DNA of 32,833 nucleotides from a virus. A program made the position numbers and the translations under genes. The DNA is taken from positions 1 to 32,833 of IMG/VR virus record IMGVR_UViG_3300009182_000200. One strand, written 5' to 3'. Within the stretch, counting starts at the first letter, position 1, and each line of letters opens with the position of its first letter. Shown here piece by piece: positions 192-26,443 of the stretch. The notes below the pieces were generated by a model, which saw only the letters and a program-made list of their open reading frames with translations, was not told where the DNA came from and made no database searches.

Positions 192-3100
192 TTATGCAGC
201 ACAATTATCTCCAGGACTTACGGTAAATGTTACTGGTCCTGATGTTGCATTACATAAATCAGTTACATAAACTATATAGATACCATATTCTAATCCATCG
301 ATATTTTGATTATTACTTATAAAATTCCCATAATCATCATACCAAGAATAGAAATATGTACCAGAACCATTACTAACAGTTATACTAATTGAACCGTAAC
401 TTACTATTATTAGTTCATCATTTTCATTAAAGACACATACCTGATCTATAACCTCCCCAATAACTAAAATAGGTTCTCCACTACAATATGTGTTTTCAAC
501 TAACGCATGTTTACGTGAATCAGATCCCAAAAATAAACATAAATTTGAATTTTGTCCACTATATGTGATGTCATAATACATATTTGGTGAACCATTATCT
601 AAACTTACAGATTTAATTTCAAGTAATTCACCATTATCCGAAATGATACGATCACCCTTAACATAATAATTATTTGGGTAATTACAACATGGTTTTATTT
701 GTGGTGATGATAATTGTAAATCTTCTGGATATCTTGAATCAAAAAAATAACTATCGGTTAAAATTGGTTCATGATTTACAATTTTATATCTTGTATATAC
801 CCTGAATTTTGTTGTAGGTAATACGTTAAAATTATAATATATATCTTCATATGGTGGTAAATACGTATTTACTGTATATGTTTTTATTGAAGCCAATGTG
901 GTAATACCAGTTATTACAACATATCTTGTTGTAAACGCAACACCAGTAAGGTTGGTTGGATTAGTTTTAGAATTTATGTCTTCAATACTTTGACTATTAA
1001 TTTGTGAGTTTGGTATATAATCAGCAATTAAAATAGTATTACCTGTTTTTAATTGATAAACCGGTGTTTCAACAAATGTGTTTCCTGTATATGTTCTTAC
1101 AACTGAATTCCATTTAAACCCAAAATTACTTGGTTTTTCATATACCACATCTAATGTAACCGCACTATATGATGATATCGTTGTTGCGGTTTTACTATCT
1201 ATAATACATAATTCAGGATTTGGTACACTATTGTCTTCCGATTTAAAAGTAATACTAACATTATTTGACGAGGATACTGATTTTTGTGTAAATTTTAATC
1301 TGACTTGACAATTTGCATCATCTAAATATAAAAAATCAATACTACTTGTTGATGTAAATCCAGTTATTTTTTGAGTACATTGATCAACAAATACACTATT
1401 ATCAAAAAATGTGTCATTATATAATGTCGGACTATTACCAGAATATAAGTATAAACCGTATGGAAAGGTATCTATTAATGAACCAACACTATTAACTGTA
1501 TGCATATTAATATCTCTCGTAAATGTTCCCCCATTATATTGTGGGTCAACTACTTCAGGTATGATTTCTAATAAACAAGTCGGAACGAATGGATCATACT
1601 CAGTTTTAATTGTAAAACTAAATGATTTCATTATACTACAACTATTAGGTCCATATTTCAATGAAGAAAATTTAATTTTTTCAACACCATCAACATCAGT
1701 AAAAAACGAATAATTTAATAATGGGTCATTTGTTATTGTTACAGTTTGACCTGTGGCATTTAAATATGGGTCATAAACTTCATATCCAGCGGTATAACCT
1801 GTATATCTAGTATTGATAACATTATCAATAAGTCCTGTTAACGCATCTAACCATAATGTTTTTATTTTTTCAATATCAGGGTTAAAATAATTATCATATC
1901 CATATATTAATGGTAATTTATTATTAATGTTGTATGTTCCTCCCGTTAATATTGTACAACCATATACATCTGTAATTGAGTCATATAATTTAGCATTTAC
2001 TAAAGTACTACCAGTTCCTGAAACATTAACACTATACGTTGTACTTGAATATGGTACCCCATCTATTTCAATTACAGGGTATAATTTTACACTACTAATA
2101 TCTATTAACCCTCTGAAATTTTCTTCGTAACCGATTAAATTTGATAAATCATCAATTAATATTGTATTAAAATTAGGATAAAGATTTTCAATTATTGTTT
2201 TTGGTTGACAACCTAATTTATAACCATATTTAGAACGACCAAATACACTATTTTGAATTAAATTACCTCCAGTCCATAATGTTGTAGATGGGATTATTTG
2301 TTCAATAATCGATGTCCAATATGGACTCATTTTATTTATGAATTCATGTACATCTATGATATTATATGGTGTAAAATCAGTACTTGTAATATAACTTTGA
2401 TAAGCGTCTTCTAGTGTTATATAATTCTTTTTATACCTAACCACATTAGAATTTGGTATTTGTTCGGTTAACAAACGACCCACAAATTCAGCAAACGTCA
2501 CACCTGTTTGTGGATGTAACGTATTTGGACGAAATGTCACACCTGTTAGTGTTTCTGATATTTTTGACCCAAATGTTAATAATAAATCTCTTGATTTTCT
2601 ATATATGTCAAAATTAACACCATTCGCAGAGTCTAAATAAATACTAATGTTTTTTCTGTTAAGAATATATGATGATTTAGAATCGTCTATTGACCCTTTA
2701 ATATTATCTATTCTTGAAGTAAGTTCAAACCCGCTATCTAAACCCGGTAAGGTTCTAAACGTATTAAAATATTCTTCACCATATGTATATGGTTTTGGTT
2801 TAGTTTTAATTGTTTTTGTTCTACCCGTTAAAATAGAATTTTCGGTATCTAAAATATCTGGTGTTCTATGATTTAAACTAATATCGTACCAACCTGAACC
2901 TTTTTGAAAAAACACATCACTTTTTGAATTATTTGCTCTTCTTGCAAGACCAGTTGTTTCATCAACAGGATAATCTGACCTTGTAAATGTTGTTGTTGCA
3001 GTTAAAATTGTTGTTGTATATGTAAAACCTGATGGGTCAAAATTTAAATTAATTATTTGTTTATCACCTTGTAAAACATCATAAATTTGATTTTGTATAT

Positions 3101-4565
3101 CTTTTAATTTAGGGGTATTTGTAACCTCATAAACATATTCATCAATTTTTATTAATTGTTCGGGAGCACCTAAAAATTTTAAGAAGAAATTAATTGAGGA
3201 TTTTGTACCCTTTGATTTATAGATGTGTGCTAGATTAACTAACATTCTTCTATAAAATTCATATTCCGATTCTATAAATGTTTTTCCCTGTGTTGCTCCT
3301 GAATATTGATTGACGCTTCTTGTGTATAATGTTTGGTCTATTGTACTTTCATCAAATAAACTAATAGTATCTAAACCTAAATTATTTGATAAATTTTTTA
3401 ATAAAATATCTGGTAAATTTTGAATACCATCATAGGTGATATTACGCATAAAAGCGATATTATCTATGTATCTTTTTACTCTATCAAAACTTTGTCCATA
3501 TAATTGAAATACGGATTGTATTTTTTGTTCAGGTGTGTCAAATTCAAACAATTGTGGTGACGCTAAAAATCTAACCATTAAGTTTGATTTATAATCATCA
3601 ATTAAATCTGCGTTATCACTTAAATCTCTAATTAAGGTATCAAATTCAATTCCAACAATTTTAATATTCCAATTATCATAATTAACAGGCCAATAAAAAA
3701 TCGCGTCACTAATTACTGTTCTTGATCCATCATTACTGTCTACTGGTATTTTTAAAGTGATTTTATATTTTGGAGAAGATTCTCTATTCATAAGGACTTC
3801 TTCCAAATCATCTAAATTATTGTAAAATTCCTCAGTAACACCATCATTAGGTCTTATTAAAAATGAATCAGTAAATTCTGTATTTCCACCAAATAAATTA
3901 CCATTTATCTTTATTGTGATAATATTTTGTGCGTTTGGTTCAATATAATTTAAAATATTGTATGTTTGTCCATTATAATCAACAACATATTTTGTATATG
4001 ATGAAAAAATATCTCTATAAACATTATCTGAAGTTGGTAAGTGAAAACTTTTAGGTTTTGACAATGTTAAATCAAATGGATTATATAATTTTGATTTACG
4101 AACACTAAATGTTGTTATGTTATTGTGAGCATCATATAAAATATTAAATGCTGTATTAACTTCACTACTTAATTGGTTATTTGCATCGACATATAATGCA
4201 GCAGGAAATTTATTAATAATTCTACTTATCGATACTAATAATCTACTTTTTAAAGAACCAAATAAAGATCTTGATGCATCATTTTTAGAATCTTTGAATT
4301 TAACTAAATTATCTTTTTCTTGTTTTGATGATGTGGTGGGGGCATCATTTTCCTGTTTCAGTTTATCTAAGGTTAGAAAATCTGAAAATGGCGATGTTTT
4401 AAAATTTTTGGAGTCTTTTTCGGGAATAACTTTATCAATTGCAAAGTTAGTTCCGGTCATTAAACTAGAACCATCCGTAATTTGAAAACCGACAAGATTA
4501 TCACTAAATGTATCCGCACCACTTGCCGCCTGACTTGGAACTTTATGTTTTACTGTTGTTGCCAT
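192..4565 (-). CDS. Large baseplate/tail protein with tail-protein-I-like region and C-terminal SprB-like repeat
   Basis: A 1457-aa protein, probably part of the baseplate or the host-contacting tail tip. Residues about 340-480 resemble the tail protein I/wedge type: a predicted helical stretch (RVKRYIDNIAFMRN) leads to YRRMLVNLAHIYKSKGTKSS and FFLKFLGAPEQL, which fits the family pattern of a Lys-Gly-Thr turn followed by a short helix and Gly-Ala-Pro. The middle is long, beta-rich and full of Thr/Gly/Asn. Residues about 1391-1450 match the SprB repeat pattern: SISITVSNGSGTYFYSWYDD, then GLEYGIYIVYVTDLCNATSG. SprB repeats are best known from Bacteroidota surface adhesins, so this end may touch the host. 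The start ATG overlaps the upstream stop by one base (TAATG). Being equivalent to T4 gp7 is possible but not shown. Confidence 0.75.
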   Translation of the reverse strand: MATTVKHKVPSQAASGADTFSDNLVGFQITDGSSLMTGTNFAIDKVIPEKDSKNFKTSPFSDFLTLDKLKQENDAPTTSSKQEKDNLVKFKDSKNDASRSLFGSLKSRLLVSISRIINKFPAALYVDANNQLSSEVNTAFNILYDAHNNITTFSVRKSKLYNPFDLTLSKPKSFHLPTSDNVYRDIFSSYTKYVVDYNGQTYNILNYIEPNAQNIITIKINGNLFGGNTEFTDSFLIRPNDGVTEEFYNNLDDLEEVLMNRESSPKYKITLKIPVDSNDGSRTVISDAIFYWPVNYDNWNIKIVGIEFDTLIRDLSDNADLIDDYKSNLMVRFLASPQLFEFDTPEQKIQSVFQLYGQSFDRVKRYIDNIAFMRNITYDGIQNLPDILLKNLSNNLGLDTISLFDESTIDQTLYTRSVNQYSGATQGKTFIESEYEFYRRMLVNLAHIYKSKGTKSSINFFLKFLGAPEQLIKIDEYVYEVTNTPKLKDIQNQIYDVLQGDKQIINLNFDPSGFTYTTTILTATTTFTRSDYPVDETTGLARRANNSKSDVFFQKGSGWYDISLNHRTPDILDTENSILTGRTKTIKTKPKPYTYGEEYFNTFRTLPGLDSGFELTSRIDNIKGSIDDSKSSYILNRKNISIYLDSANGVNFDIYRKSRDLLLTFGSKISETLTGVTFRPNTLHPQTGVTFAEFVGRLLTEQIPNSNVVRYKKNYITLEDAYQSYITSTDFTPYNIIDVHEFINKMSPYWTSIIEQIIPSTTLWTGGNLIQNSVFGRSKYGYKLGCQPKTIIENLYPNFNTILIDDLSNLIGYEENFRGLIDISSVKLYPVIEIDGVPYSSTTYSVNVSGTGSTLVNAKLYDSITDVYGCTILTGGTYNINNKLPLIYGYDNYFNPDIEKIKTLWLDALTGLIDNVINTRYTGYTAGYEVYDPYLNATGQTVTITNDPLLNYSFFTDVDGVEKIKFSSLKYGPNSCSIMKSFSFTIKTEYDPFVPTCLLEIIPEVVDPQYNGGTFTRDINMHTVNSVGSLIDTFPYGLYLYSGNSPTLYNDTFFDNSVFVDQCTQKITGFTSTSSIDFLYLDDANCQVRLKFTQKSVSSSNNVSITFKSEDNSVPNPELCIIDSKTATTISSYSAVTLDVVYEKPSNFGFKWNSVVRTYTGNTFVETPVYQLKTGNTILIADYIPNSQINSQSIEDINSKTNPTNLTGVAFTTRYVVITGITTLASIKTYTVNTYLPPYEDIYYNFNVLPTTKFRVYTRYKIVNHEPILTDSYFFDSRYPEDLQLSSPQIKPCCNYPNNYYVKGDRIISDNGELLEIKSVSLDNGSPNMYYDITYSGQNSNLCLFLGSDSRKHALVENTYCSGEPILVIGEVIDQVCVFNENDELIIVSYGSISITVSNGSGTYFYSWYDDYGNFISNNQNIDGLEYGIYIVYVTDLCNATSGPVTFTVSPGDNCAA

Positions 4566-5485
4566 TATACATTTGTAATAGTGTTAAAGTTTAGGGTTTC
4601 ATCAATTGTTGCTCTTTCTTCTCTAACTTCATATAATGTCTCATTAAAGGTATCTTTAATTTCATATAAATTATATTGTTTATAGATATTATTATCCTTA
4701 TCGTAAATCGTATATATACCTGGAGTAATTGCTTTAGTTTGATTACCATATAACGCATTTGCCAATGTACTTGTATCATATTCGACCATTTCAACTTCCA
4801 ATGTTGTTGGATTAACGTATGTATTTGTTAAAATAATTTTTTGAGATGGTTGACCAATAAATGGAACGGTATTTGGTTTATTAGATGGTGCAGATGATGG
4901 TGTTATTGTTAGAAACATTAAGTTTGATGCATTTTCACTATACTGATATCTAATTGCCTTTTGATTTGTGTTTGTTAAATTTGATGCAATTGGTGTGCAA
5001 TAAAAAGAAGAAGTAACTATTTTATAGAAATTAGGTATTTTTTTATTTGTTGTTGTATCCAAATATTCAATTCTATAACCAACTAAACCTTGTGGTGTAA
5101 ATTTATTTCTATCTTCTGTCGGTACGGTACTTAAATCAATAATTAATCCCCTAACAGAAGGTAATGAAGCTAAGATACCACAATCAGTAATACTTGTTCT
5201 TATTTGTTTTGGTCTAATATGTAATGTATAAATACCCAATTCACCAAAATCAGATGAATTTAATTTTAAATTATATAACCCACCCAATACTTCCACATTT
5301 TGTGCATTCACATTATCCGTTGTATTTGAATTATGATATACTGGTGTTAAAATATCAGATGATGTTAATTTTTTTAATGTAACCGCAGATGTTGCAACCC
5401 TATTTGATGTATAATGATAAAATATATCCACATCTGAGGGTGAAATATCTGAGGGTCTTATAATTCCATACGATCCTATCGCCAT
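4565..5485 (-). CDS. Virion-type protein of unknown function, 306 aa
   Basis: I do not recognise the family. The N-terminus (MAIGSYGIIRPSDISPSDVD) is followed by a beta-rich body with many Thr, Asn and Ser residues, few Cys (about residues 102 and 168), and an acidic, helical C-terminus (ETLYEVREERATIDETLNF). There is no signal peptide or membrane segment. It lies between a PKD-like virion protein and the large SprB-repeat tail protein, and its stop overlaps the next start by one base, so the two are probably translated together. A baseplate or tail-tip structural role is inferred only from this position. A 49-base A/T-only leader separates it from the upstream gene, and I see no Shine-Dalgarno motif. 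Confidence 0.65.
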   Translation of the reverse strand: MAIGSYGIIRPSDISPSDVDIFYHYTSNRVATSAVTLKKLTSSDILTPVYHNSNTTDNVNAQNVEVLGGLYNLKLNSSDFGELGIYTLHIRPKQIRTSITDCGILASLPSVRGLIIDLSTVPTEDRNKFTPQGLVGYRIEYLDTTTNKKIPNFYKIVTSSFYCTPIASNLTNTNQKAIRYQYSENASNLMFLTITPSSAPSNKPNTVPFIGQPSQKIILTNTYVNPTTLEVEMVEYDTSTLANALYGNQTKAITPGIYTIYDKDNNIYKQYNLYEIKDTFNETLYEVREERATIDETLNFNTITNV

Positions 5486-5534: not shown

Positions 5535-6455
5535 TTATTGTTTTTTAATATTAAAAAATTTATCCCCATAAATTTCCAACTCACCAGTATTATCAATCTC
5601 TCCTAATCTTAAATTATTTTCCATAATACCTAATTTACCTCTTTCCACAAATATATCAGAATAAACTACTGGATCATCAATAAATCCAATAAAATGTTCA
5701 TTTCTTGTTAACATTTGATTAAACAACTCTTCTTTCTGAAAATCATTTGTTTTTCCTGTAATTGAAGTTATCCCATCCGCATAATCAGTATATGTTAAAT
5801 AATCAATAGTGTATGAACTATAAATAATACCATCAACAGTAGTACCGCCTGTTACACCATTGTATGTGTTACTTCCATATAATTTCTTTTCACTAATTCT
5901 ACTTCTACCTAACGCTGCAAATGAGAATGTAGTAAATCCGGTGTGATTTGTATAGTCTAAATTATTAATATAGTCCTGTGTTTGTCCTGTTATATCAGTA
6001 TATGGGATTGTGAACCCACTAAAAGTACCTAATGGATTTATAATAGATATATTTTTAGGTACTTTTATATTTTTACTTAATGTTTGTGAATTCCAAGGAG
6101 AATTTAATAAAATAGATACGGTGTAATCAGAAGGTGTACTATATGTATGTGTTAATGTTGGTAAATTTTGATTTACGTTTTGACTAACCGTAATTCCAGA
6201 TAAATTACCATCTCCCCAATCTATTGTGAATACCTGATCAACAATATGTCTTAATTGTGAAGAATCTACTGTATTATAAACTTGTATTGTTGAACCCGTT
6301 TGAGTATATGAGAAATTACATAATTGTTCCACTTGCATTAAATCCCCATCAAATCCAACCATAACTCCCATTTCATCCACGGTTGATTCTAAATAAATTG
6401 GTATTTGATAAGATGTTATACCTGTATTATGTAATATTTGGTATTTATTTTCCAT
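5535..6455 (-). CDS. Virion protein with a PKD-like beta-sandwich domain
   Basis: A 306-aa protein. Residues about 55-118 carry the hallmarks of a PKD (polycystic kidney disease) fold: FTIDWGDGNLSG, then about 20 residues later LTHTYSTPSDYTVSILL. This is the usual WGDG ... HTY ... YTV pattern. PKD domains mediate protein-protein or protein-sugar contacts on surfaces, including phage tails. The rest is beta-rich with Thr-Gly turns and no catalytic motif I recognise. The C-terminus (ENNLRLGEIDNTGELEIYGD) is short and charged. The ATG overlaps the upstream stop by one base (TAATG), and it sits in the run of structural genes downstream of the baseplate wedge genes. Tail decoration or baseplate accessory is the best inference. 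Confidence 0.7.
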   Translation of the reverse strand: MENKYQILHNTGITSYQIPIYLESTVDEMGVMVGFDGDLMQVEQLCNFSYTQTGSTIQVYNTVDSSQLRHIVDQVFTIDWGDGNLSGITVSQNVNQNLPTLTHTYSTPSDYTVSILLNSPWNSQTLSKNIKVPKNISIINPLGTFSGFTIPYTDITGQTQDYINNLDYTNHTGFTTFSFAALGRSRISEKKLYGSNTYNGVTGGTTVDGIIYSSYTIDYLTYTDYADGITSITGKTNDFQKEELFNQMLTRNEHFIGFIDDPVVYSDIFVERGKLGIMENNLRLGEIDNTGELEIYGDKFFNIKKQ

Positions 6456-13652: not shown

Positions 13653-13710
13653 ATTTATATAAATAGAAAAAAATATATTTTCTTATATTAATATAAATAA
13701 TTTTAAAATT
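13653..13710. repeat. Three short A/T-only palindromes between the gp6-like gene and the 1532-aa gene
   Basis: The 56-base gap, plus two bases of the gp6-like stop codon, holds ATTTATATAAAT (13653-13664), TTATATTAATATAA (13683-13696) and AATTTTAAAATT (13699-13710). In DNA this A/T-rich, short palindromes arise easily, so a regulatory role is speculative. There is no T-run hairpin and no Shine-Dalgarno sequence in the gap. Confidence 0.4.
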
Positions 13711-15541
13711 AATATGTAGTCGTTCCTAAAGTTTTTAATCTTACCATAATATCGGTATTTGGAAATCTTATTTGATAAATTTGATTTGATTTCATAAATA
13801 CCGTCATATCTGATTGTTGAATTTCTTGAGTAGTTCTATCTACAAATGATTGTGCAACTTGTGATGATGAATATTGTCCACCGTTTAAATTATAAACTCT
13901 AATATCTACAACATTTATTACACCATTAACACTACCAATAATTTTCATTAAATCACCGATAAATAATGGGTCACCCATTTTTCTTTTTGAAATATCAAAG
14001 TAAGTAATACAGTCTTGTATGGTTGTTTTAACAATATCCGTCTGACTTGAATTTTTATCTATAAGTAAATCAATTTGTAATCCTAAATCAATAACCTCAC
14101 CACTTACAATATCCAAATAATCATTTATCATTCTATATTCAGAAAGATATGATAAAATATTATTTTTTAATGTATTTGAAACTATATCTGTTAAATTACC
14201 CTGATAATCATAAGATAATAATTTAATTTTTATTTTATTATCTTCTTCCATAACATTAACCTTTGCAGGTGCACCAAACGTTGAAGGCATAGTTTCAATC
14301 AACGATTTGTAATCATTTAATGTTACCGCTCTATCTTGTGCTGCAAAGTTAAATGAAACCATATTTCTAATTTCTTCAACAGTTGGTTGGTCTGCACCAC
14401 CTACTGCTGGTGTAACATTTGTCACATTTAATGATTGAATCACCTGATTATTTATCGACCCAACAGGACCTTGTACATTAAATTCAACAGTATCAACACT
14501 TGTTATGACATCCACACCCAAATTAGAGTCTTTACCACCACCAATTCTATATTTAACAAATAATGTGGTGTTTATCTTTGGTGTCGAACCTAAAGATAGA
14601 TTATTTAAATATGAACCCAAGGAAACTCTCATATTTCCATTCATATAATCATCTAAATTAGACAATGGGTCAACACTACCAGAACCAAACGTTAATGAAA
14701 AATATCCTTCTGGTGTATATTCTGTAACAAATTTATTATTAACAGGAAGATAAATACCTGATTTAAAATTTTGTCTGTCCGAAACAGATGTTGGATCAGG
14801 TATAAATACTTTATCTTGTATCATTGTTTTAACTTCGTACCACTTATTTTGAGATGAATAAAATTCTGACGATGTTGGATTTGATGAATATGTCGTTCCT
14901 TCTTTATGTATAACCGAAGTAACACCTAAAACATTTTGTTCAGGTAAATATAATTTTAAAAATGGTTTTTGATCTACCGAACTAATAACTCTTCTAAATA
15001 TTCTTGTTGTACCATTTACTACAGGTTCTCTCTTTGTTATGGTATATGATATTAATTTATTATTTGCATCAAAATTAGGTATCTTTAAACGGTTTGATTC
15101 TCCCCTATTATTAAATGGACTTGAAAAGTCAATATCATCTATTGTCTCAAAAACTTGACCTCCACCTGAAACTTGTGCTCCAGATTTTAAAATACCTTCA
15201 TATCTTTCATCATCTTTATCACCTCTAACAGGAACATTTATTGAAAAATCACATAATGCAACGGATGGTCTTGAACCAGGTAACCTAATTCCATAAGTTT
15301 TTGCAATATGGAATAATGATTGTCTTTGTTGTGCAAAGTCTAACATTGTTTCTTGCCAAACCCTATCAATATGAAAATGTAAATTATCTGCGACTGCAGC
15401 GTTAATATCTAATAATACGGAATAAATCGATGCATCATTTGTATTTTTTACTAAATCGGGATAATAATCTTTGGTTAAAGTTACCAATTCTTGTCTTAGT
15501 CCGGCAAAATCACGAACACTATAACTAATTTTTTTACTCAT
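13709..15541 (-). CDS. Baseplate wedge protein, gp6/baseplate J-like
   Basis: A 610-aa protein matching the T4 gp6/P2 gpJ type, which forms the inner ring of the baseplate wedge and triggers sheath contraction. The N-terminus (SYSVRDFAGLRQELVTLTKD) and the following DASIYSVLLDINAAVADNLH with DRVWQETMLDFAQQRQSLFH are the typical start of J-like proteins. A glycine-rich stretch (KYRIGGGKDSNLGVDVITSV) leads to GGADQPTVEEIRNMVSFNFA and AVTLNDYKSLIETMPSTFGA, the conserved J-family segment. Its ATG lies one base after the gp25-like stop (TAA-N-ATG), so the two are coupled, as expected because gp25 and gp6 are partners in the wedge. Its length is close to T4 gp6 (660 aa). Confidence 0.9.
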   Translation of the reverse strand: MSKKISYSVRDFAGLRQELVTLTKDYYPDLVKNTNDASIYSVLLDINAAVADNLHFHIDRVWQETMLDFAQQRQSLFHIAKTYGIRLPGSRPSVALCDFSINVPVRGDKDDERYEGILKSGAQVSGGGQVFETIDDIDFSSPFNNRGESNRLKIPNFDANNKLISYTITKREPVVNGTTRIFRRVISSVDQKPFLKLYLPEQNVLGVTSVIHKEGTTYSSNPTSSEFYSSQNKWYEVKTMIQDKVFIPDPTSVSDRQNFKSGIYLPVNNKFVTEYTPEGYFSLTFGSGSVDPLSNLDDYMNGNMRVSLGSYLNNLSLGSTPKINTTLFVKYRIGGGKDSNLGVDVITSVDTVEFNVQGPVGSINNQVIQSLNVTNVTPAVGGADQPTVEEIRNMVSFNFAAQDRAVTLNDYKSLIETMPSTFGAPAKVNVMEEDNKIKIKLLSYDYQGNLTDIVSNTLKNNILSYLSEYRMINDYLDIVSGEVIDLGLQIDLLIDKNSSQTDIVKTTIQDCITYFDISKRKMGDPLFIGDLMKIIGSVNGVINVVDIRVYNLNGGQYSSSQVAQSFVDRTTQEIQQSDMTVFMKSNQIYQIRFPNTDIMVRLKTLGTTTY

Positions 15542-15542
15542 T

Positions 15543-15995
15543 TTATATATTAATAATTATGAAATCGGAAGATGAAAACGCTCCGTTATTTACTGTATAA
15601 TCAATTTTTACTATTGCAGTATATGGATGTGTTGATGCATCTGAAACCCTAAATAATCTTTCGTCTTCAAGTATGTTTGGTGTCATTATTACATCAGGAT
15701 TATCATCTGCGGACATTACTGTTATTGAATTAATATCCAAATTAGGGATATAATTTTTAATTGCATCACGTATTTCTGATTCAATTAAATCCCATGTTGC
15801 TTGATCATTAGGTTCAAATATAAATTCATATAATCTAGTACCAAAATCAGGTAAATAATATCTACTTCCTTTTCTTGTTAATATTAAATGAATTAAATCG
15901 GCCCTGATCTCTCTTTCAGAAGTTTCAGTCATTTGAACAAAGTCACCTGTCGTACTGTCTCTAAATGGATAATCTATACCATATGTTCTTGCCAT
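15543..15995 (-). CDS. Baseplate wedge protein, gp25-like
   Basis: A 150-aa protein of the gp25/GPW family, a small wedge component that joins the sheath to the baseplate inner ring. Supporting motifs are GIDYPFRDSTTGDFVQMTET near the N-terminus, IRADLIHLILTRKGSRYYLP with DFGTRLYEFIFEPND (the family's Leu-x-Thr-x-x-Gly-x-Arg ... Pro-x-Phe-Gly signature), and WDLIESEIRDAIKNYIPNL. The length fits T4 gp25 (132 aa). It is the first gene after the nrdA terminator, so it opens the late structural block and should have its own promoter in the 40-odd A/T-rich bases upstream, although I cannot point to a convincing one. The next gene is the gp6-like wedge partner. Confidence 0.9.
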   Translation of the reverse strand: MARTYGIDYPFRDSTTGDFVQMTETSEREIRADLIHLILTRKGSRYYLPDFGTRLYEFIFEPNDQATWDLIESEIRDAIKNYIPNLDINSITVMSADDNPDVIMTPNILEDERLFRVSDASTHPYTAIVKIDYTVNNGAFSSSDFIIINI

Positions 15996-17715: not shown

Positions 17716-19668
17716 TTAAAATAAATCGTCCTCACCTATACTTTTACTTTTTTTATTATAGTCAATTTGTTTTTTATAAAAAAAATCACCTTCTTTTGTT
17801 GATGTAGTTTCAACATCAAACCACAATGTTTTTTCAATTTCTTTTAAATCAACATTAAAAATAGGGTCTATTCCAATTTTTTGTAATGAATTATTAAACC
17901 TGTTCATTATAAAATTTTTTATGGTTTCTTTTGATAAAAATTCCAATTCACCCTTTTCAAATATCCAATCAAGTATTTTACATTCTGCTTTATATGCCTT
18001 TTTACATGCAGATGTAATTAATTCGGTAAATTCTTCATCAAACCACTCTGGATATTCCGATTTTATTATATTAATAACTTCAGCACCAAAATTACCATGT
18101 ATATTTTCTTCTTTTGAAGTTGCTTCAACAACATTTGAAATTCCTTTAAAAAGGTTTTTTTCTTTATTAAAACTCATCATTATTAAGAATTGAGAAAATA
18201 AAGATACGTGTTCAATAAATAATGAAAAAAGTAAAATTGATTTCGTATACATTTTATCATCGTCACTTCTAGTACCATCTATATATTTTGTCAAATATTT
18301 TATACGATCCTTTATTGCTGGTATTTCAACAACTGTTCTAAATTCATCTTCCAATCCTAAAATTCTAAGTAATCTAGCATAAGCGTCTTTATGTCTAACT
18401 TCTGAATTACCTCCTATAAATGTTTTATTATTATATCTAGTGATTATCATACCAGAATCAACGCTAACACAATATATTTTACCATCATAATTTAATTTTT
18501 CCTCTTTTAATGCAGAAAATCCAACTCTTTCTCTATTTTCTAAAAAAGATAAAACGTAATTATCATTAAAATTATCACTTCTTTTATCAACACTAGTGAT
18601 GAAATTCACTTTATATCCTGCACATGTACCAATTGCTTGAGCAATATCCGCACAACTTTTATTTGTTGTTGTATATTTTATTTTACAATCTTTTTTTAAT
18701 GGTAACTTATACCCATCCCATTCTGATAATTCCTGAACAAATTCTTTACACCATTTCCATGATTTATCTTTTAAATTAACCCAATCAAATGTTTTGTAAT
18801 TAAAAGACATATCCATTTCAAATTCAACTTTTAAATAACCTCTTTTTTCTTTATATGTTCTATATTTTATGTCAGTATTATTTAATAGATATAAAAGTCT
18901 TTCTTTCTTTCTATTTTTTTTAACTGAAATCTCATATGTGTTAGAATCTTTACTTAATCCCCTATCAATTCTTTCACCTAACTTATTGGTAAAAAACCTT
19001 TTACTACCATCAGCCTGTATTGCGATTTTTAACCTATCTAATGTTGATAACTCATCAACATCACCAATTAACTTTCCAGCTTCTGGTAATCTATTGTTAG
19101 CGTTTCTTACACCTAAATCCTCAATAGCTTTGATTGAAAATTCGTTTTTATGATTATAATATCCAATTCGATGATTTGGTGTTATTATTGTATCTAAATT
19201 ATCCTTATAAATTCTATGTACAATACCATTATAATTTTCATATGTTTTATTATTTACTATGGTTACATTTAAAGTATTATCAGGATTGAATTGTATCACT
19301 TCATCACCAATATTAATTTTATTAAAATCAACCCAACCTTGAGGTGTTAAAATTTCAGTTCCTTCAACATGACATTCGGCAAATGTCATACCAACATCAC
19401 CAATTTCAGTAATTGGCATTCTTTTATACATATCCGCCCAAAATGTTTTAACATTGACTTCTATTTGTGCAATAGCTAACATTGTTTTTTTAATCACATC
19501 CTTTTCATTTTCTGTTATATTAACCATATAATCATTTATGTCAGTGGTAAAATTATACTCTGTATCTATCCAATATGAATGTCTTATAGCGTCTTTATAC
19601 AATAAAAGTGATGGATAATCGTATGGTAAAATGTTGACTCGTTTATTAAAAATTCCCTTTTTTTTCAT
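17716..19668 (-). CDS. nrdB: Class I ribonucleotide reductase small (beta) subunit, interrupted by an in-frame intein
   Basis: The 650-aa precursor should splice to a 327-aa NrdB that makes the tyrosyl radical for NrdA. Extein features are Glu70 (AIAQIEVNVKTFW), Glu423 and His426 (SEVRH), the radical tyrosine Tyr430 seven residues after Glu423, Glu486 (LFIEHVSLF), and Glu521/His524 (EENIHG). These supply the usual diiron ligand pattern. The sequence looks Bacteroidota-like (MLAIAQIEVNVKTFW, TFAE/SEVRHKDAY). An intein occupies residues 99-421, between Glu98 and Ser422, next to the metal and radical site, so unspliced protein should be inactive. No ATP-cone is present at the N-terminus. It follows the helicase C-terminal ORF by 14 bases and precedes nrdA by 9, forming one operon. 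Confidence 0.96.
   Translation of the reverse strand: MKKKGIFNKRVNILPYDYPSLLLYKDAIRHSYWIDTEYNFTTDINDYMVNITENEKDVIKKTMLAIAQIEVNVKTFWADMYKRMPITEIGDVGMTFAECHVEGTEILTPQGWVDFNKINIGDEVIQFNPDNTLNVTIVNNKTYENYNGIVHRIYKDNLDTIITPNHRIGYYNHKNEFSIKAIEDLGVRNANNRLPEAGKLIGDVDELSTLDRLKIAIQADGSKRFFTNKLGERIDRGLSKDSNTYEISVKKNRKKERLLYLLNNTDIKYRTYKEKRGYLKVEFEMDMSFNYKTFDWVNLKDKSWKWCKEFVQELSEWDGYKLPLKKDCKIKYTTTNKSCADIAQAIGTCAGYKVNFITSVDKRSDNFNDNYVLSFLENRERVGFSALKEEKLNYDGKIYCVSVDSGMIITRYNNKTFIGGNSEVRHKDAYARLLRILGLEDEFRTVVEIPAIKDRIKYLTKYIDGTRSDDDKMYTKSILLFSLFIEHVSLFSQFLIMMSFNKEKNLFKGISNVVEATSKEENIHGNFGAEVINIIKSEYPEWFDEEFTELITSACKKAYKAECKILDWIFEKGELEFLSKETIKNFIMNRFNNSLQKIGIDPIFNVDLKEIEKTLWFDVETTSTKEGDFFYKKQIDYNKKSKSIGEDDLF
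18406..19374 (-). other. NrdB intein with LAGLIDADG-like homing endonuclease domain, ending Gly-Asn
   Basis: Residues 99-421 of the NrdB precursor (323 aa). It starts with Cys99 in CHVEGTEILTPQGWVDFNKI (block A). Block B is TIITPNHRIGY with His166. LAGLIDADG-like motifs are LKIAIQADG (about 213-221) and FVQELSEWDG (about 310-319), each keeping the acidic Asp before Gly. The C-terminal block is YCVSVDSGMIITRYNNKTFI followed by Gly-Gly-Asn421, then Ser422 as the +1 nucleophile. The penultimate residue is Gly, not the usual His. Removing the stretch restores the conserved NrdB string FAESEVRH, which fixes both boundaries. Confidence 0.92.
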
Positions 19669-19682
19669 GTTATATTTGTTTT

Positions 19683-20141
19683 TTAATTATTTGCAATTTG
19701 ATTTCTTCTTTGATACGCCTCTCTAGCTCTATTAATATTATTTTTTGACTTCTCTTCTTCATGACCTAATAGAGTGTTTTGCATCTCAGTATCTATATCT
19801 AAATATTCGTTATTGAATTTACAGTTCTGAAAAACTACACCATCTTTACCAATACGAGATTTAAGTAATGTTAAAGTTGCCAAATTGTGATCTTTTTGTT
19901 CTAATGTTTTACCGATAGATAAGATAACGTGACCAATTTGTGCCTTCTTAATAGAACCACCCATTTGATCTGCGGTAACAACTTCAGATGAAATTGATGA
20001 ATTATGTGTATATATGTCGTTTGCAAAAAACAACTCAGTTTCATCAACAGATATATCAATTGTTTCATTTTCACCCTCTAACTCGATACTAACGATTTCA
20101 TCTAAAATAAAATCGTTTAAATTTAATTCATGTTTTAACAT
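19683..20141 (-). CDS. Replicative helicase C-terminal piece, fused to the C-half of a split intein
   Basis: A 152-aa ORF that makes sense only together with the ORF just upstream. Residues 1-47 are a C-intein (MLKHELNLNDFILDEIVSIE ... ELFFANDIYTHN) and residues 48-152 are the final part of a T4 gp41/DnaB-type helicase (SSISSEVVTADQMGGSIKKA, then QIGHVILSIGKTLEQKDHNL). After trans-splicing, Ser48 would join Arg708 of the upstream protein to give the continuous string ATQGNR-SSISSEVV, as in intact phage helicases, including the conserved Gln and Arg of DnaB motif H3 and the following motif H4 region. The start ATG lies 14 bases after the upstream stop in a different frame. The C-terminus is charged (EAYQRRNQIANN). 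Confidence 0.92.
   Translation of the reverse strand: MLKHELNLNDFILDEIVSIELEGENETIDISVDETELFFANDIYTHNSSISSEVVTADQMGGSIKKAQIGHVILSIGKTLEQKDHNLATLTLLKSRIGKDGVVFQNCKFNNEYLDIDTEMQNTLLGHEEEKSKNNINRAREAYQRRNQIANN
20001..20141 (-). other. Split intein, C-terminal half (gp41-8/gp41-1-like)
   Basis: The first 47 codons of the helicase C-terminal ORF. The end LFFANDIYTHN followed by Ser matches the C-intein blocks F and G: penultimate His46, terminal Asn47 and +1 Ser48. The stretch DEIVSIELEGENETIDISV resembles the C-half of gp41-8 (DEIASIEYVGVEETIDINV, from memory). It begins with its own Met, as naturally split C-inteins do. Confidence 0.93.
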
Positions 20142-20155
20142 ATTTTTTTTTTATT

Positions 20156-22552
20156 TTATTGTTTTATTAATAATTTATCACCTACAGATAATCCAGAACG
20201 TATTGATTTATATTTATTATAATTAACAGGAAATAAATGTTTATCTGATACAATAATTTCTTTACCGCTTTTTGTTTTAATTTTATATGTTGGTTGTGTT
20301 TGTATTGGTGAAACATATGTTACTTCTTTAAATCCAATGTGCGTTAAAATTTTATCACCTACAGAAATGTCTTTAATTTCTATTTTACCTTTACTTTCAA
20401 CATCAACAATTGTTTTAATCCAAACGCACCGATTACCTTGTGTTGCAGTCCATACCGCCATCTCAAATTCACTTGTCATAGATTCCAATTGTCTCATAAT
20501 TGAACCTTCTCCCTTCCATTCATCACCATTAACGGATCTTTCAGGTGAAATACAATCAATATAATCAATTAACAATAAATCGACCTTAAACCCGTCTGAA
20601 CACATCTTTCTGATTTTAGATTTAATTTCAGAAATTGTTACACCATCAGATTGTAATTTCAATAATTTAATTGAACCTTTTGTATTACTTTGTATTTCTT
20701 TAACACGAAACAAAACTTCATCTTTGTTATCACTTTGTTCATCAGGTGCAATACCTGACCAAATTGTATAGTGTTTTCTTTTAATGTTACCAGGATTATC
20801 TTCAAAAAATACTTGAAGTACATTATATCCTAAATTATATGCAGTATTTGCAAATTTAGTTAATAAAGTGGTATTATGTGTTAATACATAATCCCTAGTA
20901 ACAAATAATTCATCTGTATTTGATACTTTTATACATACCGCTTCTTCGTTATGTGAAAAATTAATTGATTTAATATATTTTTGTGAAATATATTTTTTTC
21001 TTTTTCTAAATCTTTCTATTTTTCTTATTAATCTAAATGGTACAATATTATTTGAAAAAGATATTGTTACAACATATGCTATTTGACCTAACTTTTTAAA
21101 ACCTTTATATTTAAAAGTTGGTTGTTTTAAAGTTATATTACATGTTCCACCTAATGATAAAACTATTTCTCTAATATTTAACGATAATTCTTTTGAAATA
21201 GTCGTTATTTGTGTACCACCTTTTTTATCCACATAACCATCAGTATCCATTAAACCTTGTAAAATTGATAATCTAACTTCAAATGAATTATATAAATAAT
21301 CATTTGGGATAAATTTATTATTAGATTCTGTCCCCAATAAATTATATTTTTCTAAATCTTTTTTAATTCTGTAATTAAATGAAATTTTTTTTATTGTTTT
21401 TATACCGGTCAATGTTTCTCTTTCATATTCATTAAATGATGTATGAATATTCAAATGTTTAATATTATCGAATATTTCATCATCTTTAGTTGAAATTTGT
21501 ATTGTACCACAACCTAAACAACCATCACCCAAGAGTAAACCTAATAAATATGGATCAATAAATACTTCTTTTTCATTAAAGTTAATTGGTTCAACAATAG
21601 GTAAACGATAATTATATCTACCTCGTTTTTTTATATCCAACATCATTTCAGATGTTTTCATAACTTTATAATTGTTATTTGGTTTATATAAAGATATACC
21701 ATTTTTTCTTATTTTTGTTGTTCTCATATTAAGAGTATTAACTGACCATAAATGTTCTTGATCACAGTTAACAAAAGTATTATCAGTGAATTCAACTCTA
21801 TATATTGGTCTATTACCTTGTGGAAAAACCCCTATTGTAAATTGTTCATTACCATCAGAACCTATGATTTTATCACCACATTTAATATCCCCAATTTTCA
21901 TCCAACCATTTGGAGTCAATATTGGTTCACTTATAGGTAATGATTTACCCGTACCAGTCGGAGCTAAAACTACACCCAATTCACCTATTCCTAAACCACC
22001 TTTTAAAAGGTTGTCAATACCTACGATACCTGTTGGTATTGGATGTCTGAAATCTTTCTCTAACGCACCTTCAATATCGTGAAACACATCTGTTGCATCG
22101 TCATTGATGATACCAACTTGTAACGCTTTTTGAATTATTTGTTCAATTTTCGCATAATTTTCAAACTCACCATTCTCAATAATACTTTGTACGTTTTTAA
22201 GTTCCCTCTTTAAATTTTGTTGTTTACAAAAATTAAGTGCGGTATCTTTAACATATTCTGTTGGTTCACTAGATTTAATTATTTCTAATGTGTCAATGTG
22301 GATTCTAGCAGATTCCTTATTACCATTTTCTGCCATAATCTTTTGTGCCAACGTATTATAGTCAGGGATTTTATTATACAATTTATATAACTCTTTCAAG
22401 TTCTCCATTATGAACTTGAAAGCGTTATTGTCGAAGAAACGAGATTCTATTACATCAATGATGTTTTCACCATACTTTTTATCTTCAATAATCGCTTTGA
22501 TTAATGATTGTTGAAATGTTGCCCCCAAATAACCGAAATTCCTTTCTTCCAT
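20156..22552 (-). CDS. Replicative helicase (T4 gp41/DnaB type) N-terminal piece, with one full intein and the N-half of a split intein
   Basis: A 798-aa precursor of the hexameric 5'-3' fork helicase. Layout: residues 1-203 are the N-terminal domain and start of Walker A (LAPTGTGK); 204-560 are a complete intein; 561-708 are the rest of the RecA-like core (TTLLTKFANTAYNLGYNVLQ, Walker B VDLLLIDYIDCIS, and AVWTATQGNR); 709-798 are a split-intein N-half ending in a stop. Removing the full intein restores GTGKTTLLTK. The helicase body from this ORF is 351 aa, and adding 105 aa from the next ORF gives 456 aa, close to T4 gp41 (475 aa). Both inteins interrupt essential ATPase motifs. The leader is A-rich with no Shine-Dalgarno. 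It follows the 148-aa unknown by 13 bases. Confidence 0.95.
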   Translation of the reverse strand: MEERNFGYLGATFQQSLIKAIIEDKKYGENIIDVIESRFFDNNAFKFIMENLKELYKLYNKIPDYNTLAQKIMAENGNKESARIHIDTLEIIKSSEPTEYVKDTALNFCKQQNLKRELKNVQSIIENGEFENYAKIEQIIQKALQVGIINDDATDVFHDIEGALEKDFRHPIPTGIVGIDNLLKGGLGIGELGVVLAPTGTGKSLPISEPILTPNGWMKIGDIKCGDKIIGSDGNEQFTIGVFPQGNRPIYRVEFTDNTFVNCDQEHLWSVNTLNMRTTKIRKNGISLYKPNNNYKVMKTSEMMLDIKKRGRYNYRLPIVEPINFNEKEVFIDPYLLGLLLGDGCLGCGTIQISTKDDEIFDNIKHLNIHTSFNEYERETLTGIKTIKKISFNYRIKKDLEKYNLLGTESNNKFIPNDYLYNSFEVRLSILQGLMDTDGYVDKKGGTQITTISKELSLNIREIVLSLGGTCNITLKQPTFKYKGFKKLGQIAYVVTISFSNNIVPFRLIRKIERFRKRKKYISQKYIKSINFSHNEEAVCIKVSNTDELFVTRDYVLTHNTTLLTKFANTAYNLGYNVLQVFFEDNPGNIKRKHYTIWSGIAPDEQSDNKDEVLFRVKEIQSNTKGSIKLLKLQSDGVTISEIKSKIRKMCSDGFKVDLLLIDYIDCISPERSVNGDEWKGEGSIMRQLESMTSEFEMAVWTATQGNRCVWIKTIVDVESKGKIEIKDISVGDKILTHIGFKEVTYVSPIQTQPTYKIKTKSGKEIIVSDKHLFPVNYNKYKSIRSGLSVGDKLLIKQ
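20159..20428 (-). other. Split intein, N-terminal half (gp41-1/gp41-8-like)
   Basis: Residues 709-798 of the helicase N-terminal precursor (90 aa). It starts with Cys709 in CVWIKTIVDVESKGKIEIKD (block A) and carries KSGKEIIVSDKHLFP with the block B His772. It ends IRSGLSVGDKLLIKQ and a TAA stop. The gp41-1 N-half has the very similar GKEIICSEEHLFPT and ends GGLKEGMCLYVKE (recalled from memory), so the break falls at the natural split site of that family. Confidence 0.94.
20873..21943 (-). other. Cis-splicing intein with LAGLIDADG endonuclease, inserted in the helicase Walker A motif
   Basis: Residues 204-560 (357 aa) of the helicase precursor. It starts at Ser204 (SLPISEPILTPNGWMKIGDI), so the first nucleophile is Ser rather than Cys. 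Block B is NCDQEHLWSV with His267. LAGLIDADG motifs are LLGLLLGDG (336-344) and LQGLMDTDG (431-439), both with the catalytic-type Asp. The end is VCIKVSNTDELFVTRDYVLT-His-Asn560, followed by Thr561 as the +1 nucleophile. Removing Ser204-Asn560 leaves GTGK joined to TTLL, a perfect P-loop, which supports these boundaries over a start at Leu205. Confidence 0.93.
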
Positions 22553-26071: not shown

Positions 26072-26443
26072 TTACTCTAATGTTAACAAATAACTCAACT
26101 TATTGACTTCTCCTAACATTTCGTCACGGATATTTAATAAGTTAGTATCCGTCTCGTCAAATTCATCGGTAAATTGTATTAGTGCTTCTCTGATAGTCTT
26201 AATCATTGATTTAACATCAATCTCACTTAAATTTTTTAATTCAAGTGTCTGATCATCACCTTCTAATGTAAATCTACCGTATTTACCCATGGCCTCCTCA
26301 ACAAACCTATCAATCAATTCAATAAGTTCCATATAGATATTGCCAAATGCCTCGTGTCTTGCAAATCCTTTAGTTTGCCAATGGTTAATTTTAAATTGTG
26401 CATGAATTTCCATGAAGAATTTCACTTTAGAACCTATATTCAT
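26072..26443 (-). CDS. Small Dps/ferritin-like protein
   Basis: A 123-aa all-helical protein. The string INHWQTKGFARHEAFGNIYM then ELIELIDRFVEEAMGKYGRF matches the core of the Dps family (His-Trp, about 9-12 residues to His-Glu, then Asp-x-x-x-Glu). Spacing from His30 to Asp45 (15) and on to Glu49 (4) equals that of the E. coli Dps ferroxidase ligands His63, Asp78 and Glu82. His21 fits His51. The position of Asp67 is Gly34 here, so one ligand is missing. It is shorter than Dps (about 167 aa) and lacks the DNA-binding lysine tail. Similar small ferritin-like proteins of unknown function occur in T4-like phages (possibly DUF5856, uncertain). It overlaps the upstream gene by 17 bases. Confidence 0.7.
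   Translation of the reverse strand: MNIGSKVKFFMEIHAQFKINHWQTKGFARHEAFGNIYMELIELIDRFVEEAMGKYGRFTLEGDDQTLELKNLSEIDVKSMIKTIREALIQFTDEFDETDTNLLNIRDEMLGEVNKLSYLLTLE

Follow-up and report, generated by a model that had tools for sequence, protein, structure and literature searches.

A divergent SprB-like unit at the exchangeable end of a tail-cluster protein from an uncultured myophage

A tail-cluster protein encoded by the IMG/VR virus record IMGVR_UViG_3300009182_000200 ends in a stretch that resembles the repeat unit of SprB, the gliding adhesin of Flavobacterium. Is the resemblance real, where could such a unit have come from, and what would it do at the end of a phage protein? The window (the whole 32,833-nucleotide stretch of DNA analyzed here) is a linear record in which every large gene lies on the minus strand. 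Its genes include those for gp25, a gp6-type wedge protein, ribonucleotide reductase subunits, a DnaB-type helicase, a UvsX-like recombinase, and a single-strand-binding protein, which is the gene set of a T4-like myovirus. The same phage is also represented by an incomplete 98.8-kb contig (L003), in which the protein is 100% identical. Comparison of gp6 places it nearest to an uncultured 484-kb phage, Flavobacterium phage immuto (26% identity), and a Microcystis phage, and comparison of primase again places it nearest to immuto (33%); a Bacteroidota host is therefore likely, judging from these sequence neighbors. The features discussed below are as follows.

192–4565, minus strand: whole gene, 1457 amino acids, ATG at 4565, with conserved core, trunk extension, and SprB-like end (from the ORF, its translation, and relatives)
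2217–4565, minus strand: core, residues ~1–783, 50–60% identity among relatives, with a weak phage-tail-domain signal in relatives at residues ~435–470
486–2216, minus strand: trunk extension, residues ~784–1360, stopping at the junction
195–485, minus strand: variable end, here the SprB-like unit and its flanks, residues 1361–1457 (AF2 model of residues 1363–1457)
240–398, minus strand: stretch matching the full-unit SprB profile, residues 1390–1442 (profile search)
4565–5485, minus strand: conserved tail-cluster gene, 306 amino acids, immediately upstream of the core gene in those relatives that were compared
5535–6455, minus strand: neighbor gene, 306 amino acids; its C-terminal half is a stand-alone protein of ~160–210 amino acids in relatives, and its N-terminal half is weakly PKD-like
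13709–15541, minus strand: baseplate wedge protein of the gp6/gpJ type
15543–15995, minus strand: baseplate wedge protein gp25 (PF04965, 54.7 bits)

Elsewhere in the window, the DnaB-type helicase gene (19683–22552, minus strand) appears to contain two inteins, one at the P-loop and one that is naturally split, with its N-part at the end of the ORF at 20156–22552 and its C-part (...IYTHN|S) at the start of the ORF at 19683–20141. TIGR01445 matched weakly, TIGR01443 matched above its cut-off, and we take the split intein to resemble those of the gp41 type. The gene for the ribonucleotide reductase small subunit (17716–19668, minus strand) has an intein-like insert at residues ~107–420, and a small protein encoded at 26072–26443 (minus strand) matches a starvation-inducible (Dps-like) PHROG family.

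The original prediction placed an SprB repeat pattern at residues ~1391–1450, in an ORF at 192–4565. The ORF exists, but it is read on the minus strand, from 4565 to 192. The pattern is also there: the sequence YGSISITVSNGSGTYFYSWYDDYGNFISNNQNIDGLEYGIYIVYVTDLC is present at residues ~1390–1438 (about positions 398–252 of the window, minus strand). The Pfam SprB model (PF13573) matched only residues 1391–1410, and this 20-residue match (16.8 bits, E = 0.0053; E = 2.9e-6 when the record was searched with that single family) is below the curated cut-off of 28 bits. The relative L002, which is 66% identical overall, gave 17.0 bits at the same place. Because PF13573 covers just 37 positions, a longer profile of 71 positions, spanning the full unit, was prepared by iterated search; it was seeded with phage fiber units, then built from 79 Bacteroidota adhesin loci, and never included the window. 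It matched residues 1390–1442 of the window protein with 28.2 bits (E = 1.9e-9, profile positions 13–62 of 71) and L002 with 33.7 bits (E = 3.7e-11), and no other protein of the window scored. The subthreshold Pfam score might suggest a chance likeness between a Thr/Ser/Gly-rich β stretch and the SprB pattern. However, shuffling the last 182 residues 20,000 times gave at most 13.1 bits, and the best of 1,755 reversed ORFs only 7.0 bits, compared with 28.2 and 33.7 bits in the two relatives. In the reverse direction, a profile made from the window and L002 units only had bacterial SprB units as its best outside matches (up to 26.1 bits, E = 1.4e-6). Chance similarity was rejected on the shuffles and the reciprocal search, and we regard it as extremely unlikely. 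By these profile comparisons, then, the end of the protein is genuinely related to the SprB unit, although divergent from it. The predicted pattern thus holds, and the family search came out in two ways, below cut-off with Pfam and significant with the full-unit profile.

The end shares with the SprB repeat (PF13573; found in the gliding adhesin and in other Bacteroidota surface proteins) the full-unit match, the GxGxYxYSW and GLxxGxYxVxVTD motifs, and a β-sandwich model. It differs in its altered N-terminal CNGGxDG part, an 8-residue insertion, a score below the Pfam cut-off, and its place on a tail-cluster protein. Neither the gene nor the 98.8-kb record showed more than one unit, there is no tandem repetition, and Pfam and NCBIfam scans of the protein detected no type IX secretion sorting domain. 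Given the single copy and the missing array and secretion tail, we call the end SprB-like and do not class the whole as an SprB repeat protein.

Structure prediction, proposed earlier as a check, returned a confident β-sandwich: AF2 with a 38-unit SprB alignment modeled residues 1363–1457 with a pLDDT of 92.9 and a pTM of 0.81. This model is not independent proof because the alignment presupposes SprB homology. A single-sequence model of the last 182 residues had an overall pLDDT of 46, with ~50–80 in the SprB-like part and β strands in the expected places. Fold searches found immunoglobulin (Ig)-like β-sandwiches, none at E < 0.001 and none family-specific; the Aureispira grappling-hook protein is among the top PDB matches, as are phage capsid proteins, and several matches among viral models are named "SprB repeat." A fold search from the low-confidence single-sequence model gave meaningless results and was discarded.

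What kind of protein carries this unit? Searches with PHROG, Pfam, and NCBIfam models did not assign the trunk to a family. A PDB sequence search with the core gave spurious matches only, tblastn found no match to either the whole protein or its end in 50,697 phage records, and neither Tail_P2_I nor TIGR02242 gave a significant match to the window protein. In relatives, weak tail-domain matches occur, all below cut-offs (L009, TIGR02242, E = 0.03; the distant relative L023, TIGR02242, E = 0.008 and Tail_P2_I, E = 0.0045). There is also a profile match to a 1142-amino acid protein of a 241-kb phage, encoded close to a gp6 homologue, and the window gene sits in a single same-strand cluster downstream of the gp25- and gp6-like genes. 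Gene order, the 1142-amino acid match, and the weak signals in relatives point to a putative baseplate-associated tail protein. The earlier label of a tail-tip protein was right as to the tail cluster and imprecise as to the tip. The family is previously undescribed and is abundant in uncultured virus contigs.

A comparison of relatives shows where the end begins. An initial scan yielded 22 relatives. When the core profile was used, 311 were reported, and 80 of these were retained. The core (residues 1–783) is common to all of them. Of the relatives, 46 are non-redundant and have a complete end. The core alone is present in 14 of these (their ends are 8 to about 230 residues long), the trunk reaches about residue 1340–1360 in 28, and it is partial in four, with Thr/Pro-rich stalks following in 21; these counts describe the retrieved contigs, which are not a random sample. 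For at least 18 relatives (in some cases near-duplicates of one another), the alignment stops at residue 1360, which is the start of the SprB-like unit, and for others it stops within ~25 residues of that point. After this junction, the relatives carry unrelated ends: short tails, Thr/Pro stalks of up to >1000 amino acids, and varied terminal domains. An SprB-like unit directly at the junction was found only in L002 and L003, whereas in L211 the trunk protein continues into a stalk and then terminates in SprB units. The expectation that this end would vary between related phages was strongly borne out. In L180 (7986–16109), L153 (1263–6581), and L218 (749–6847), the trunk proteins are extended by Thr/Pro-rich stalks that run for hundreds to more than 1000 residues and contain short bead motifs such as CDFxVDVxxxxPTPTP. 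The trunk protein of L227 (7025–12943) ends with a DxSGS stretch (WFDDSGSMNGT) that by eye resembles a von Willebrand A metal site, where Pfam found nothing.

In one pair, the window phage and L002, dN/dS was 0.07–0.17 in four neighbor genes and climbed from 0.23 for the core through 0.36 for the extension to 0.46 for the end. This rise, from a single pair and remaining below 1, fits faster change of an exposed end and also fits relaxed constraint. No reverse transcriptase of a diversity-generating retroelement was found in 12 records of the group, and therefore no retroelement-driven diversification was seen. Residues 15–100 of the neighbor protein encoded at 5535–6455 show a 37% match to part of a different, fiber-like protein (L009, 968–4030); set beside its separately conserved C-terminal half, this match may be a further sign of module shuffling.

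SprB units also occur next door. In 14 of the 46 relatives, another gene in the fetched DNA carries them, usually a fiber-like gene with Thr/Pro stalks or cadherin domains and 2–10 SprB units, and several of these proteins share an N-terminal domain and a tip domain. Several of the arrays exceed the Pfam cut-off, with 142 bits in L136 and 128 bits in L130. No such gene was found in the incomplete 98.8-kb contig of the window phage. The presence of true SprB arrays in an adjoining fiber-like gene of relatives makes the suggested use of the end in attachment plausible, with binding as a prediction. The record LR756502, a 642-kb uncultured phage, has 14 SprB units in one protein, in contrast to the single unit here; this protein (L158, 3097–8121) additionally contains PKD and CHU_C (type IX secretion) domains. 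Provided that the record does come from a phage, the host's secretion system perhaps exports the protein onto infected cells.

Does the name of the family reveal the origin of the unit? SprB repeats had been taken as typical of gliding and adhesion proteins, and such specificity was not supported, because the Pfam model exceeds its cut-off on the T5-type decoration protein pb10 of phage DT57C (46.8 bits) and on RB43 fibritin (41.9 bits). Both are proteins of enterobacterial phages and both are also matched by the full-unit profile; PMC5292684 describes the domain of pb10 as Ig-like. A PDB sequence search with the end gave only E ≥ 0.4; the decoration protein 5lxk, found there at E = 1, gained interest after the pb10 match to the SprB model. 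Like pb10, T4-type Hoc, and RB43 fibritin, the window protein ends in an Ig-like domain on what gene order suggests is a virion protein. Those proteins belong to the head or neck of enterobacterial phages, whereas this one is encoded in the baseplate cluster of an uncultured, probably Bacteroidota phage. Phage-encoded SprB proteins also exist by name and fold match among uncultured Caudovirales (A0A6J5MUM3, A0A6J5LD72, and A0A6J5LDA4 in BFVD). The modular Ig-like domains near structural genes of gut Bacteroidota phages, the BACON/PKD adhesins (PMC13370021) and tentaclins (PMC10743442), are likewise thought to be adhesive; however, those are gut phages with BACON/PKD or C-lectin domains, and PMC13370021 does not mention SprB. 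A literature search for SprB repeats in phages found only a paper on bacterial toxins. Ig-like and SprB-type domains on phage structural proteins are thus already known, and public databases name phage proteins "SprB repeat." The Pfam name alone does not imply a gliding adhesin.

Capture of the unit from a host adhesin, as originally suggested together with mimicry, is possible but was not established. According to this explanation, a host gliding adhesin supplied the unit, which either binds SprB or partners of SprB or allows the particle to use the moving adhesin track. The best outside scores of the unit are consistent with it (26.1 bits for bacterial SprB, 22.7 for virus-contig units, and 16.3 for pb10), and one tree groups the unit with bacterial units (local support 0.77–0.87). 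Resampled single-unit trees disagree, however: the unit lies beside bacterial units in most but not all of them, local support is low, and the placement shifts with sampling. A bacterial best match is also favored by the units available, about 1,600 bacterial versus ~100 phage. No bacterial unit is more than 52% identical to it (over ~50 residues), and a pattern-based scan of 84,980 genomes, a method that needs near-exact short patterns, found no close bacterial copy of the end. The occurrence of immuto among the nearest cultured gp6 and primase relatives agrees with capture, and the coverage of enterobacterial phage Ig-like domains by the Pfam model argues against it. Gliding proteins play a part in the adsorption of flavobacterial phages, and SprB has been discussed as a possible receptor (PMC13288928, PMC7345892); these papers make capture testable and do not support it directly. 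Overall, capture with mimicry appears distinctly unlikely. More speculative still is a broader scheme, in which the trunk would be a general socket of abundant uncultured, probably Bacteroidota myophages for interchangeable outward modules (SprB-type, long Thr/Pro stalks, and diverse tips), the SprB-type ones having been taken from host gliding adhesins for attachment via the host's gliding or adhesion partners.

Here, we propose that the end is a surface-contact module of a baseplate-associated tail protein in a large contractile-tailed phage, an explanation to which we give a slightly better than even chance. The first ~1360 residues would form a conserved trunk built into the particle, a position deduced from gene order. 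The last ~95 residues would form a single divergent SprB-type Ig-like domain at the exchange junction, most likely facing outward and contacting the host cell surface (a glycan or a surface protein) during adsorption, and the end may be exchanged by recombination as hosts change. The single copy argues against a contact module, as SprB arrays usually repeat. The domain could instead be a generic phage Ig-like decoration that sticks weakly and promiscuously to carbohydrates or surfaces, as on Hoc and pb10, and is not a specific receptor-binding part. The matches of the SprB model to pb10 and fibritin above cut-off, and the fold neighbors among Ig-like domains of phage capsids and adhesins, agree with this explanation. 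An exchange point with very diverse alternatives and a faster-evolving end fit host-specific contact better, although not decisively, and generic decoration is in our estimate unlikely but carries some weight. A purely structural cap or oligomerization domain that closes the trunk is highly unlikely. Some relatives do finish with ~60 residues at the same place and have no stalk or extra domain, as if the end may only need closing, but ends of 8 to >1,900 residues after the core are tolerated, which a required cap would not allow. With a surface-contact module as the preferred explanation, the junction at residue ~1360, on a family that has no annotation, is a testable candidate site of host recognition in these uncultured phages.
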